This document shows positions 1 to 7,626 of a stretch of 10,180 nucleotides of DNA, one piece after another. Both the position numbers and the translations under genes were made by a program. Location: positions 1-10,180 of the forward strand of contig JAOZRF010000068.1 of the NCBI GenBank assembly GCA_029940245.1. Reading direction: 5' to 3'. Position 1 is the first letter of the stretch, and each line of letters starts with the position of its first letter. Source of the DNA: Desulfobacula sp. GTDB taxonomy: Bacteria > Desulfobacterota > Desulfobacteria > Desulfobacterales > Desulfobacteraceae. The notes under the pieces were generated by a model that was not told where the DNA came from, ran no database searches, and saw nothing but the letters and a program-made list of their open reading frames with translations.

Positions 1-946
1 TGGCAATGGGATCGCCAAAACTTTTCCTTACAATTTGACAGGGGTCTTGTACTGTGAATTTTATTTTAAGGTCTTTGTTCCAGTCGGAATTGACCTTTAA
101 TTTACCTTCACGAATCCATTTTGCATAATATTCATATATATTTTTAACGACAAAGTTATGCTCGATATTGAATTTTTTCAGTCCTGCCAGGACTGAGAAA
201 GTGACGTGACCTCACTCGGTGTTGAGGAACGTCTTACAGCCAAGCTTATCAGCCTGGTTTGCCGATGTTTTGGTTACATGTTTCCATGCATCATCATCTG
301 CCAGGAACATGCAATAGTTTTCACCGGCCCAGCCACTGCTGCCATAGGTCCAGTCAACCCCGGCCAGATGCAATATTTTCCACAGAGGGACCAGTTCATC
401 CGGCTCTGTTACAGGTTCCCTGGAATTCTGGTTCAGGAAAAATTCAGCCCCTTCCTTGTCAATGGGGGCCTGCATATCTTCAAATTCCGGTTGGGCTTCC
501 TGGTATTCTTCCAATACATCATTGACAACAAAATCAAAATCTTCCGGCGAGGCTGCCATGGCGCTACAGCTTTCATTTTTGAGTGCCGCGTCACAGGACC
601 CAAGGATTCCCTTTGGTCTTTCTTCTCTGGGGCGTAACTGCCTTGCATTATAGATCAATTGAGGGATATCGATCTTCATGGGGCATACATAAATGCAACG
701 CTGGCACATTGTACACATCCAGGGCCAGTCAGATTTTGCAATTTCTTCATCCATACCTAAGGCAGCCATACGAAGAAATTTTCTGGGGTCCATATTTTCA
801 AGTCCTGTGGCAGGACATCCTGAAGCGCATGCGCCGCATGTTAAACATGCGTTTAAATTGCCGCCCTCAGGCAGCAATGCTTTGACTTTATCTAAAAAAA
901 TACTTTTTTGTTTCTTATTTCCAAGCTTAATGGTGGCTAATGTCAT
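1..946 (-). CDS. DsrK/HdrD-like (Fe-S)-binding selenoprotein, 3' end beyond the window
   Basis: Cytoplasmic iron-sulfur electron-transfer protein related to DsrK, HdrD and TmcB. Seen: two 4Fe-4S motifs, CxxCxxCxxxCP at residues 34-45 and 78-89, then a CCG-type region with GVDWTYGSSGWAGENY (about 196-211). At residue 245 the motif E-[UGA]-GH stands where relatives such as DsrK have ECGH. The frame after UGA (214-212) is open for 70 more codons to the window edge and continues with family-like sequence, including a DPC motif at 301-303 resembling the HDPC of CCG domains. A SECIS-like hairpin follows the UGA. I therefore read UGA as selenocysteine and the product as at least 315 residues; a conventional gene caller would stop at 212 and give 244. 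The start ATG at 946 has GGAAGGA 7 bases upstream. Family is known; the exact partner and substrate are not visible. Confidence 0.85.
174..214 (-). promoter_or_regulatory. UGA selenocysteine codon with bacterial SECIS-like hairpin
   Basis: The UGA is at 214-212 on the minus strand. The transcript then forms UCAGUCC (196-190) paired with GGACUGA (184-178) around a loop of UGGCA, seven uninterrupted base pairs. After one C/A mismatch the stem extends by three more U-A pairs (200-198 with 176-174). The loop GG sits 24-25 nucleotides after the UGA. Bacterial SECIS elements, the SelB binding sites, are hairpins close behind the UGA with a G near the top of the loop, so spacing and shape fit. The hairpin lies inside the coding frame, as expected in bacteria. 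Confidence 0.8.
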
Positions 947-1236
947 TGATCATTCCTTCCCTTGATTTAGAAGCATTTTTATTTTTCAGGCCTTCAAACA
1001 TGCCTTTATTTATTCATAAATCATTTTAAATTTGAAACTCGTCCACTGTATATCAAATGGTGAAATCGTATGTAAAGGAAAAAATATCTTTAAAAAATAA
1101 AAAATAAAAACAATAAGGATTTTTGGCGGGTGACAAATCAATTCAAATTTAGTGATGGATTGTTTTAAAATCATTGCGGTCTTAATTTTTGTGATTATTT
1201 TAGAATTTCATAACCATTAGAATGAAAGGGTAAAAT
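947..1236. other. Divergent intergenic region, AT-rich
   Basis: This stretch separates the divergent selenoprotein and TPR genes and must hold promoters for both. It includes an A-rich run at about 1076-1115. For the plus strand only a weak match was found (TTGCGG at 1174-1179, then ATTTTA 17 bases on). No coding frame, RNA gene or convincing operator was seen. Confidence 0.6.
1047..1076 (-). promoter_or_regulatory. Candidate sigma70 promoter of the selenoprotein gene
   Basis: On the minus strand TTTACA (1076-1071) is followed after 18 bases by TATACA (1052-1047). The -35 box is one base off consensus and the -10 box is two off. Transcription would begin near 1040, leaving a leader of about 95 bases before the ATG at 946. 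The region is AT-rich, so chance matches are likely. Confidence 0.35.
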
Positions 1237-1900: not shown

Positions 1901-2689
1901 CTATAGTTTTGATGCCAGCACGGCAGCACCAATGGCTCCATTTTCCTGGGCGAAATCTTTTACAATAAGCGTTAATCCAAGGCGCTTTTCAAGGGCTGCG
2001 ACCATTCCTTTGTTTTTAGCAACACCTCCGGTCATCATCACTGGTTTTTTGATTTTAATTTTGTTTGCAAGGATAGCAACCCGTGCAGCTGCCGAGTCAT
2101 GGATGCCGGCAATAATATTTTCTCTTTTTTGCTGTCCGGCAATCATGGAAATGACTTCAGATTCTGCAAATACGGTGCAGATACTGCTGATTTTTAAAGG
2201 CTTGTCTGCATTAAGGCCAAAGTCACCCAATTGATTTAATTCTACTTCAAGGGCCTTGGCCATGACTTCGAGGAATCGTCCTGTGCCTGCGGCACATTTG
2301 TCGTTCATGGCAAAATTTTCCACCTGGCCTTTGGCATTTAGAAGAATGGCCTTGCTGTCCTGACCGCCGACATCAATGATTCCCCGGATTTCAGGGTTTA
2401 TAAAATAAGCACCTGTACCATGGCAAATGATTTCCGTCAGTGCTTTGTCTGCAAAACTAACGCTGGCACGGCCATAGCCAGTGGAAACAATGGCCGGAAC
2501 ATCTTTTTTTGAAATTTTTGCTTTTTTTAAAAGCGCTTCAAACACTTTGATTCCGGCATTTATGGGGTCATAGCCAGTGAGAATGACATGGGTGGCCAAA
2601 AGACGGTTATCTTTTATCAAGGCTGCCTTGGCTGTAATTGAACCAATATCAATTCCTGCATAAATGCTGCCCCTTTCTTTATTATTCAT
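1901..2689 (-). CDS. Acyl-CoA dehydratase activase (BadF/BadG/BcrA/BcrD ATPase family)
   Basis: ASKHA-fold ATPase of the HgdC type. In this family a homodimer holds one [4Fe-4S] cluster between subunits and uses ATP to inject a low-potential electron into its dehydratase or reductase partner. Seen in the 262-residue product: phosphate-binding GIDIGSITA (12-20), GTGAYF near 91, DVGGQDSKA (106-114), the cluster cysteine in NDKCAAGTGRFLE (C132), a second cysteine in SSICTVFAESE (C171), and GGVAKN (221-226). The length matches single-activator HgdC or BcrD rather than the longer BcrA. I chose ATG at 2689, with AAAGGA about 12 bases upstream. It leaves four bases after the stop of the preceding gene, and GIDIG then lies at the usual distance from the N-terminus. 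An upstream TTG/ATG extension to 2734 would overlap that gene by 41 bases. Last gene of the operon. Confidence 0.9.
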   Translation of the reverse strand: MNNKERGSIYAGIDIGSITAKAALIKDNRLLATHVILTGYDPINAGIKVFEALLKKAKISKKDVPAIVSTGYGRASVSFADKALTEIICHGTGAYFINPEIRGIIDVGGQDSKAILLNAKGQVENFAMNDKCAAGTGRFLEVMAKALEVELNQLGDFGLNADKPLKISSICTVFAESEVISMIAGQQKRENIIAGIHDSAAARVAILANKIKIKKPVMMTGGVAKNKGMVAALEKRLGLTLIVKDFAQENGAIGAAVLASKL

Positions 2690-2693
2690 CAAT

Positions 2694-3923
2694 TTAATCG
2701 TTCCTTTGTTTGATGATTTCCATGAATGCATCAATCCGGGTTTCTATCTGGGATTGTGAAAAACTTCTGGGATCAACCATATCCGCCTCTATCATGATAA
2801 CGGGAATATTTGTTTTTTCCCGGACGATTCGCATAATATCCATCTGTCCGAATGAGTAAGGCTTACAGGATCGATTTGAATGCATCACAAGCCCATCGGC
2901 ATCATAAAATTTTATCATGTCAAGCACCTGGTCTGCCATCTGGTCAACACCGATATTCAGATAGATCCTGGTATAAGCCTCGGCCATGGAATCCAGAAAA
3001 TTATTTTCATCCGTATATTTTATGGCACCACACCAGGCAGAGGTATAGGTATCTGCCACCAGACAGGCATTGTGACCGGAGAATTTTTCAGACAGCCATT
3101 TTAGCCTGTACCACACGGGCAGATTATCCCATAAAAGCCTGTATTTTTCATCGGGAACCATACTGATTCCGGTCTGTATCCGCTGCTCCATTTCTTGAAG
3201 CAGCTGCCTGTAAAAATCAACAGCGATTTGAGTGCCCCGCAATGTGACGATCAGGGCAAGGAAAAAGAATGCATCAAAGGCAGACATGGGCGATGGCTTG
3301 TGGGCAGTGGTGTTGAGGACTTTTTGCCAGAGCAGCTGGGCCGTATATGCAAGTTTGCCCACCCGTGCCATTTTGTCATAGTCAAATTTCTTTTTGGTAT
3401 TTGTTTCAAGAAAGGCAATGTATTCATCCATCTGGGTCCGAACATACCTTGCGATTTCCGGGGAATACTGAGTATGGCAGATGGGGGTATCCAGAATAAA
3501 CAAGGGTACATTATAATACCTTGCCTGGATTTCATACCATTTGAGCACAGTACCGCAGATGTTATTGCAGCAGATCAGCATGTCGGGTTCAGGCAATCCC
3601 CCCAGCGGCCCTCCCTTGACAATTGAGCATGAGATATCTGTCCTTGCATAGGAACACAGATCAGAACTGTAGCCCATATCTTCGGCTTTTATGCATAGAT
3701 CTTCTCCCATTTTTGATGCCCCGATCATGGCACCATGGTTTTCCGGATAAACGGGGATGATATCCATTGCCACCAAAGGCTCTACAGGCCCTCCGGAAGT
3801 GATCCAGGCAACTTGTCTGTTGTTCTGTTTCGCGGTCATGGCATCCAGATAATAGGTGGTCATGATATCCCGCATTTTTTTTGCGGATTTTATTTTTCTT
3901 TTTTCCGGCAGCTTGTCTGACAT
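2694..3923 (-). CDS. 2-hydroxyacyl-CoA dehydratase/benzoyl-CoA reductase family subunit (HgdA/BcrB-like)
   Basis: One of two related subunits of an iron-sulfur enzyme that performs radical dehydration of 2-hydroxyacyl-CoA or ATP-driven reduction of an aromatic acyl-CoA. Over 409 residues it shows WITSGGPVEPL (40-50), VYPENHGAM (58-66), a cysteine-rich stretch (C77, C90, C99, C118, C119, C123) with CCNNICGTVLKWYE, a late NRSCKPY (C353), and the C-terminal signature IEADMVDPRSFS with a following TRIDAFME. These are typical of the family, whose conserved cysteines bind the active-site [4Fe-4S] cluster. Length is normal. ATG at 3923 has AAGGA about 9 bases upstream. It lies 14 bases after the partner subunit and directly before the activase. 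Which subunit type it is, and the substrate, cannot be settled by eye. Confidence 0.85.
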   Translation of the reverse strand: MSDKLPEKRKIKSAKKMRDIMTTYYLDAMTAKQNNRQVAWITSGGPVEPLVAMDIIPVYPENHGAMIGASKMGEDLCIKAEDMGYSSDLCSYARTDISCSIVKGGPLGGLPEPDMLICCNNICGTVLKWYEIQARYYNVPLFILDTPICHTQYSPEIARYVRTQMDEYIAFLETNTKKKFDYDKMARVGKLAYTAQLLWQKVLNTTAHKPSPMSAFDAFFFLALIVTLRGTQIAVDFYRQLLQEMEQRIQTGISMVPDEKYRLLWDNLPVWYRLKWLSEKFSGHNACLVADTYTSAWCGAIKYTDENNFLDSMAEAYTRIYLNIGVDQMADQVLDMIKFYDADGLVMHSNRSCKPYSFGQMDIMRIVREKTNIPVIMIEADMVDPRSFSQSQIETRIDAFMEIIKQRND

Positions 3924-3937
3924 AAGGTAAATCCTTT

Positions 3938-5050
3938 TTAAATCATCTGAATAAAGGTTTCAAAACGGGTGGCCAACTGCCCTGAGTTTTGCTGCTGATC
4001 ATCCATTTCAATCAAAAGGGTTTTTATGCCTTCTTTTTCAATGGCTTCTTTTAAATAGGGATAATCAAATGCATGGGGATCACAGAATTTGACCAGCATA
4101 AAAATGACTCCATGGGCGTTGTTCTTTTTGGCAAGTGAAACCAGATTTTCACCACGGGCCGTGGGAGAAGCATGTTTTGCAGGACAGATCATGCGGTCCA
4201 GTAATCTTGCGGCAATTGCATTTATGGGATTTTCATCATCCGGAATTTCACCTTCAAACCATCTTTGACCTGTGCAAAGGTCATCTCCTACAATAATGCC
4301 ACCCGCAGCTTCCAGGGCTGTATAAATATCAGGAGAATCACAGATGGAACCTGACACAACGATTCGTTTTACATTTTTTTTGGGAACATCAATTTTTTCA
4401 AGATTGGCCACAATGACCGGCAGAAGTTGGCCCACCTCGTCTGGGTCCATCACCATGGATCCTTTTACAATTGCAAAAAGATCAGCTCCTTTTATGATTC
4501 CGGGCTTTTGGGATTGAAGGGCATAAATTTTTGACAGGTTTTTTCTGATGAAATTGAATTTTTTAATGGATTCCCAAAGATCTGTGTTGGTGATTTTTCT
4601 TTCTGCCGCAATTTCAAGGGCTTGTTTAAATTTGTTCAAAACATCCGTCATATAGGTTCTCGCACTTTGGGTGTTCAGTTTGGCAGGCAGGACCACATCG
4701 GCAAAAAATTCATATTTTCCATTCATGCGCCAGATGTCACTCAGGCGCTGGATGGAGTCACAGGTATGGGGAAACACTGTTCCATCAAGGAAAGAAAGTC
4801 GGCCGGACAGGCTGTCCTCCAGCACACCCCGTACCAGAGAACAGCAATAGGCCTGAAGATGCTGCTCTGCCATCATAATCTCTGATTTTGAGGAAAAAAG
4901 CCGCATGGGATGAAATCCAGCAGCATATATCAATTCCTCTGGTGCATAGGAACAAAGGTAACCGATAATTTTTTTTGGCCTTGCCTTGATTTTGGAAGCA
5001 ATAATTGACACGTCTTTTATTGCATCACAAAAAATATTTATTTCCTTCAT
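3938..5050 (-). CDS. 2-hydroxyacyl-CoA dehydratase/benzoyl-CoA reductase family subunit (HgdB/BcrC-like)
   Basis: First gene of the operon and the second dehydratase-family subunit. The 370-residue product shows YLCSYAPEELIYAAGFHPMR (31-50), a CCS pair (C69, C70), FPHTCDSIQRL (C97), GDDLCTGQRWFEGE (C259), and the C-terminal KFCDPHAFDYPYLKEAI (C323) followed by GQLATRFETF. These are the usual cysteine positions and CoA-domain motifs of HgdB, BcrC and BadD. It would pair with the next gene to make the cluster-bearing heterodimer that the activase charges. I chose ATG at 5050 because GGAG lies 9 bases upstream and family homology begins soon after. The frame can be extended to a TTG at 5143, but that has no ribosome binding site and reads low-complexity basic sequence. 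The order (C-like, B-like, activase) resembles bcrC-bcrB-bcrA, but no fourth gene follows. Confidence 0.87.
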   Translation of the reverse strand: MKEINIFCDAIKDVSIIASKIKARPKKIIGYLCSYAPEELIYAAGFHPMRLFSSKSEIMMAEQHLQAYCCSLVRGVLEDSLSGRLSFLDGTVFPHTCDSIQRLSDIWRMNGKYEFFADVVLPAKLNTQSARTYMTDVLNKFKQALEIAAERKITNTDLWESIKKFNFIRKNLSKIYALQSQKPGIIKGADLFAIVKGSMVMDPDEVGQLLPVIVANLEKIDVPKKNVKRIVVSGSICDSPDIYTALEAAGGIIVGDDLCTGQRWFEGEIPDDENPINAIAARLLDRMICPAKHASPTARGENLVSLAKKNNAHGVIFMLVKFCDPHAFDYPYLKEAIEKEGIKTLLIEMDDQQQNSGQLATRFETFIQMI

Positions 5051-5051
5051 A

Positions 5052-5183
5052 TTATTTTTCTCCTGTGTATTCACCTGTCTGGCAAAGCTTTTTAATCGCC
5101 TCATCCTGCAGGATTTTAAAGGCAACTTTTTCGACCCATTCAAAGTAGTGCAAGCAAACTGATTTCAAGTACCAAACGCATCT
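5052..5183 (-). other. Short orphan reading frame in the leader of the dehydratase operon
   Basis: A frame open for 43 codons runs from 5183 and stops with TAA at 5054-5052, one base before the dehydratase ATG. Its translation, ending in FEWVEKVAFKILQDEAIKK and then LCQTGEYTGEK, looks like a genuine protein C-terminus rather than random sequence. No ATG is present; TTG codons at 5168 and 5153 have no ribosome binding site. It may be the tail of a lost upstream gene that once was coupled to the dehydratase subunit. I do not recognise the family. Confidence 0.3.
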
Positions 5184-7158: not shown

Positions 7159-7626
7159 CAGTTTCAGACGTTTGATTCAAACCCTGGGTTGCAGACAAAG
7201 CAATTATTTGAATATGCAGATAAAAGGCTTTATTCAAACCGGCTTGAATTCATTAAGGGGTATCCAATCTGCACAGGTGGTTTTAATTATAAACCTGATT
7301 CAAACAGAATTCTTCTGGCAGGCGATGCTGCAGGATTGGCTGAACCACTGCTGGGAGAAGGTATTTTTTTTGCCATAAAAAGTGGTCAGATGGCTGCCCG
7401 GGCAATTCTTGAATCTGAGCAGCACACCTTGTCAGCAAGACTTTTTTATATGAAAAAATTAAAAGCGATTCAGATGGATTTAAGATTCCATGAATTCAGT
7501 TCAAAATTGCTTTACAAATTTCCCAGGGTTTCCTTAAAAGCCCTGTCATTACCATTTGTTCGCAAATACTTTGTCAAATGTTATGCTAATGGAAAAACCA
7601 TTACCCAGATCCTTTATGGTAAATAA
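7159..7626 (+). pseudogene. C-terminal remnant of a geranylgeranyl reductase family flavoprotein
   Basis: The frame opens after TGA at 7156-7158 and gives about 155 residues. Recognisable is the second FAD-contact region of this family: NRILLAGDAAGLAEPLLGEG followed by IFFAIKSGQMAARAIL. The remaining C-terminal part is basic and helical. Family members are near 350-400 residues and begin with a Rossmann GxGxxG dinucleotide motif. That half is absent, because the DNA upstream codes for the intact end of the HD-GYP protein in another frame. There is no ATG or ribosome binding site; the earliest possible start is TTG at 7189. It therefore looks like a 5'-deleted gene that can no longer bind FAD. 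An expressed short protein is possible but less likely. Confidence 0.7.

Follow-up and report, generated by a model that had tools for sequence, protein, structure and literature searches.

Here we describe an iron-sulfur protein gene at the start of contig JAOZRF010000068.1 of a Desulfobacula sp. assembly (GCA_029940245.1), in which an in-frame UGA codon very probably encodes selenocysteine (Sec). The window, meaning the whole 10,180-nucleotide stretch analysed, is the entire contig, in a genome of 566 contigs and 79.5% completeness, and this contig breaks off before the gene reaches its 3' end. Read on the minus strand from position 946, the frame runs for 244 codons to a TGA at 214-212 and then, as the initial annotation that proposed Sec here had stated, remains open over 70 further codons until the contig runs out; at this base composition, a run of that length would stay open by chance with a probability of about 0.013. 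The GH right after the UGA and the later DPC motif, which that annotation had likened to the family, are both present, the latter as QDPC. Among named relatives, a Desulfobacula sp. assembly comes nearest (91% identity), by which the host, a relative of marine sulfate reducers, is probably a sulfate reducer of the Desulfobacula kind. The features of the locus are as follows.

1-946, minus strand: predicted HdrC-HdrB-type iron-sulfur selenoprotein gene, 5' part, 315 codons (relatives' open frames, Pfam)
671-856, minus strand: two 4Fe-4S cluster motifs, HdrC-like part, residues 31-92 (Pfam Fer4_8 and related; profile match to HdrC chains)
206-313, minus strand: putative degenerate first CCG half-site, Cys212 ... 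Glu244-Sec245-Gly246-His247 (invariance in 42 aligned proteins)
212-214, minus strand: in-frame UGA, predicted selenocysteine residue 245 (close relatives have TGA, more remote homologues Cys)
178-196, minus strand: predicted selenocysteine insertion sequence (SECIS) hairpin, +16 to +34 from the UGA, arms 196-189 and 185-178, loop 188-186, GGC (RNAfold, pairing conservation)

The in-frame codon in related genomes

A match to the gene at E <= 1e-60 is present in 84 of 86 same-family genomes, the window genome included. Among the 150 matches listed from these 86 genomes, 105 carry one in-frame TGA and 45 carry none, as counted by eye; the 57 closest listed matches (at least 78% identity, window among them) all have the TGA, and at least 71 of the 86 genomes, again by eye, hold a TGA-bearing match among those listed. 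A second collection, partly overlapping with these genomes, consists of named loci, the best 80 of 221 confirmed and biased to close relatives, and reads NTE-U-GH at the site in all 80. The motif used for collecting sequences admitted only U or C at the site and required [QHD][DN]PC behind. TGA-bearing isolates include Desulfospira joergensenii, Desulfobacter vibrioformis, Desulfobacter latus, Desulfocicer vacuolatum, and Desulfonema magnum. In all nine Cys proteins that were read out the site is ECGH (NTE-C-GH versus NTE-U-GH) and the chain continues past it, and 38 database proteins in alignment A1 likewise have ECGH, with Cys in every row.

Homologues do not end naturally at this codon: the open frames of relatives are mostly 440-456 codons long, and the 120 database proteins listed are mostly of 430-450 residues. 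Truncation by gene callers, which the initial annotation had anticipated, affects five of these 120 (P0003, the window's own protein, P0098, P0107, P0109, and P0112), each ending in NTE at 244 residues. Across 130 gapless comparisons with the window, the median ratio of nonsynonymous to synonymous differences per site (pN/pS) is 0.142 in the part preceding the UGA and 0.077 in the part following it, values computed position by position with gaps disallowed, which may inflate the pre-UGA figure in more distant copies, with synonymous sites near saturation and identical sequences kept. By this measure, the frame behind the UGA is under purifying selection.

The hairpin behind the UGA

The perfect 7-bp hairpin that had been proposed, with a loop GG 24-25 bases behind the UGA, was recovered with one pair more: RNAfold gives eight pairs around a 3-base loop, and G24-G25 behind the UGA are bases 188-187. 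Pairing was compared after 152 entries had been merged to 99 distinct Sec and 21 Cys sequences, the latter comprising 20 hand-picked from the 45 listed stop-free matches and one met in locus L081; 20 further Sec paralogues were also hand-picked. All eight pairs are kept in 70 Sec sequences, seven in 28, and six in one, whereas the Cys sequences form two to six, so that seven or eight pairs occur in 98/99 Sec and 0/21 Cys forms.

The pair adjoining the loop (+23/+27) is T-A in 47 sequences and G-C in 44, and is Watson-Crick in 91 of 99, whereas 20,000 shuffles, which did not keep relatedness, averaged 46.5 and never exceeded 65. Here Leu CTG pairs with Ala GCA (42 sequences) and Arg CGG with Ala GCC (42); therefore, a silent change tracks a replacement on the opposite arm. 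Codons within the hairpin are nearly frozen (GTC in 108/108 Val, GGA in 108/109 Gly, and AAA at +34 to +36 in 103/103 Lys), and those slightly beyond it are variable. A search against Rfam returned nothing at gathering level, only weak matches to unrelated families at E up to 10. By its position, and by a conserved pairing restricted to Sec forms, we identify the hairpin as a bacterial SECIS element.

Selenocysteine machinery and alternative readings

The window genome encodes selA (591.5 bits), selB (352.5 bits), and selD (367.6 bits), each above its cut-off, which bears out three of the four genes that the initial annotation had suggested looking for. Of 26 genomes from the genus, the window genome counted among them, 22 have the fourth gene, selC, above cut-off, and ARAGORN reports a tRNA-SeC with anticodon tca in all three relatives scanned. 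As a separate observation, the window genome's selD, on contig C52, has one in-frame TGA of its own (KASG-U-AAK), and the selenophosphate synthetase here is probably itself a selenoprotein.

Several points weigh against Sec at this codon. No selC was found in the 79.5%-complete window assembly, and when 3 kb surrounding the selC of a relative were searched against it, no match longer than 100 bases exceeded 71% identity and selC itself was left uncovered. The four genus genomes without selC are 79.5, 81, 56, and 68% complete, and three others at 77, 78, and 81% do carry it; incompleteness of the assembly is a likely, if unproven, cause of the absence. In addition, as a single sequence the hairpin folds only mildly better than expected (z -1.96, with 10 of 200 shuffles equally good). 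Once relatives are compared, both the open frame and the hairpin nevertheless stand far above chance, and we put the probability that the UGA at 214-212 encodes selenocysteine at about 0.96.

The best-surviving alternative, itself improbable, is that the UGA is recoded as another residue, either through general reassignment or as cysteine inserted by the same machinery under selenium shortage. Sec machinery may insert Cys when selenium is short; however, the TGA-free homologues that were read carry Cys (under a collecting motif that admitted only U or C), and both the hairpin and selA, selB, and selD are present. Even less probable is a genuine stop yielding a 244-residue protein or a pseudogene: gene callers do end the protein there in the five database entries noted above, but this is hard to reconcile with purifying selection behind the UGA (median pN/pS 0.077), with a CCG domain located behind it, or with seven or eight hairpin pairs in 98/99 Sec forms versus 0/21 Cys forms. 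A sequencing or assembly error for the Cys codon TGT or TGC, to which the fragmented assembly of 566 contigs and the Cys of more distant homologues might lend colour, is excluded for the family, since the TGA recurs in independent genomes and in 80/80 named loci, isolates included.

Protein type and cluster sites

With selenocysteine at residue 245, the predicted protein is of the HdrD type, joining an N-terminal 4Fe-4S dicluster and a C-terminal CCG domain in one chain. Pfam Fer4_8 and CCG are above their cut-offs in L018, the nearest relative of full length, with CCG behind the UGA; there are profile matches to HdrC and HdrB, and the model shows fold similarity. The general Pfam scan of L018, which included no transmembrane predictor, matched no membrane domain. 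Of the earlier placement with DsrK/HdrD, the HdrD half stands and the DsrK half does not. The best NCBIfam matches are TmcB (172 bits), HmcF (171), and DsrK (120), yet their cut-offs are 735, 750, and 400, and the GlpC models score 29-33 bits against cut-offs of 278-280; identity as a DsrK, TmcB, HmcF, or GlpC equivalog was rejected on these scores.

The chain does not hold two complete CCG cluster sites, the first lacking a CxxC in the 42 aligned proteins. Cys212 and Cys/Sec245 are invariant in these 42, the next invariant Cys being only Cys303, and Cys212 is nearly invariant in a second set of 33. From its spacing, we infer that this half-site corresponds to the first CCG motif of HdrB. Compared with HdrB and HdrC of the methanogen HdrABC, the window protein has a first CCG half-site without the CxxC and falls below the curated cut-offs; its Sec would stand, by spacing, at the second Cys of the HdrB pair. 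Mycobacterial EtfD includes a membrane part and carries a linear [3Fe-4S] cluster at the site, whereas the window protein has no CxxC left for such a cluster.

Gene neighbourhoods, paralogues and evolution

Of the 80 named loci, 75 extend 700 bases or more ahead of the gene and 68 extend 1000 or more past it; mvhD lies directly before the Sec gene in 25 of the 80, and mvhD directly before together with metV directly behind is seen in 14. The order in Desulfonema magnum is hdrA-mvhD-[Sec gene]-metV-metF; the labels HdrA, MvhD, MetV, and MetF were assigned by reading the sequences, without a family search. Among the named loci, the 15 nearest to the window (L047-L061) all lack mvhD directly before the gene, and the window's own Sec gene stands alone: none of the listed open reading frames (ORFs) of at least 80 residues lies on its strand within window 947-1236. 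The neighbour is a divergent TPR gene, and the same TPR gene occurs in 17/80 named loci.

Other genes recur near the Sec gene. A CGGC-domain gene stands directly before it in 16/80 named loci (for example, L048 5592-5981), its identity established by Pfam for one of these genes, and none precedes the window's Sec gene. Three minus-strand genes at window 1901-5143 resemble two subunits of 2-hydroxyacyl-CoA dehydratase plus the corresponding activase. The activase scores above the TIGR00241 cut-off and both subunits score below every listed cut-off; similar genes are also found near the Sec gene in several named loci. A plus-strand ORF of 145 residues at window 7189-7626 has no Pfam match at E 1e-5, and we take it to resemble a C-terminal piece of a geranylgeranyl reductase-kind FAD-dependent reductase, perhaps a gene remnant.

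The window genome holds a second, distant Sec copy on contig C526 (L003, 4586), with TGA at the same codon. It lies between a MetF-like and a large HdrA-like gene and has a hairpin of its own, with a minimum free energy of -13.0 for +13 to +38.

A quick, midpoint-rooted tree was built from 108 Sec and 21 Cys proteins (129 in all); on it the Sec/Cys label needs four changes, against 19.9 when shuffled. The C526 copy and L164 are long-branch Sec rows of unsure placement, and because both sit nearer the Cys forms, there may have been more than one gain or retention of Sec. Conversely, the Cys sequence L146, whose genome also keeps Sec copies, is nested within the Sec group (support 86-92%) and for that reason suggests a Sec-to-Cys reversal; of the hairpin it retains a portion of the second arm (GCAGGA), while the fold is lost (-2.5 kcal/mol).

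Discussion

Selenoproteins of this kind are already known and have been described since 2006, the window gene being a further member of the kind. A 2006 survey gives a Sec-containing Fe-S oxidoreductase (GlpC) with five sequences from Deltaproteobacteria in operons with hdrA and frhD (PMC1794560); a 2022 review lists the same protein (PMC9312934), and a 2026 review does so with the motif UGH (PMC13188914). By description, the window protein shares with this family (COG0247 / PTHR43551, motif UGH) the Fe-S oxidoreductase character, the Sec followed by GH, and the deltaproteobacterial occurrence, a likeness of motif and description. The setting differs, since the Sec GlpC family occurs with hdrA and frhD, while the window copy is alone and the 14 named relatives mentioned above have mvhD and metV.

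Another possible counterpart by description is HdrD4 of Desulfobacterium autotrophicum HRM2, presented in the 2009 genome paper as HdrCB-homologous and selenocysteine-containing (PMC2702500), and without a transmembrane part, as proposed here for the window protein. A marine deltaproteobacterial genome report includes an Fe-S oxidoreductase among its selenoproteins (PMC8318568), and the five Sec genes given in the Desulfococcus multivorans genome paper do not include this one (PMC5109826). Within the accessible portions of the open-licence literature, nothing was found that links the Sec residue with either a noncubane cluster or a metVF operon.

From the codon, the hairpin, and the domain order, we infer a mechanism in which SelB carrying Sec-tRNA would bind the hairpin just behind the UGA and insert selenocysteine at residue 245, with translation continuing to a protein of about 440 residues. 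The product would be a soluble HdrC-HdrB fusion of the HdrD type, in which electrons probably pass via two [4Fe-4S] clusters to a noncubane cluster in the complete second CCG domain. Because the first CCG half-site retains just Cys212 and Sec245, the most likely role of Sec245 at the active site would be that of a cluster ligand or a redox-active selenol, and it may form a pair with Cys212. In the part of the wider Desulfobacterales where the gene lies between hdrA-mvhD and metV-metF, the protein would probably carry electrons between flavin-based HdrA and methylene-tetrahydrofolate reductase, an electron path that is much less sure than Sec at the UGA.

A bolder and, in our estimation, unlikely proposal is that Sec replaces a lost Fe-S site: the first CCG domain would have no noncubane cluster of its own, and the Cys212/Sec245 pair would carry out two-electron chemistry, either as a selenenylsulfide or with Sec as a ligand of the neighbouring noncubane cluster. 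If true, heterodisulfide-reductase catalysis would here have a selenium-assisted variant, one that in part of the group feeds methylene-tetrahydrofolate reductase.

From a practical standpoint, ordinary gene calling at the UGA conceals the CCG domain and thereby the function of the protein. Many genomes of the family also hold Cys forms, so that the contribution of selenium near a probable noncubane cluster could be assessed on naturally paired Sec and Cys paralogues.
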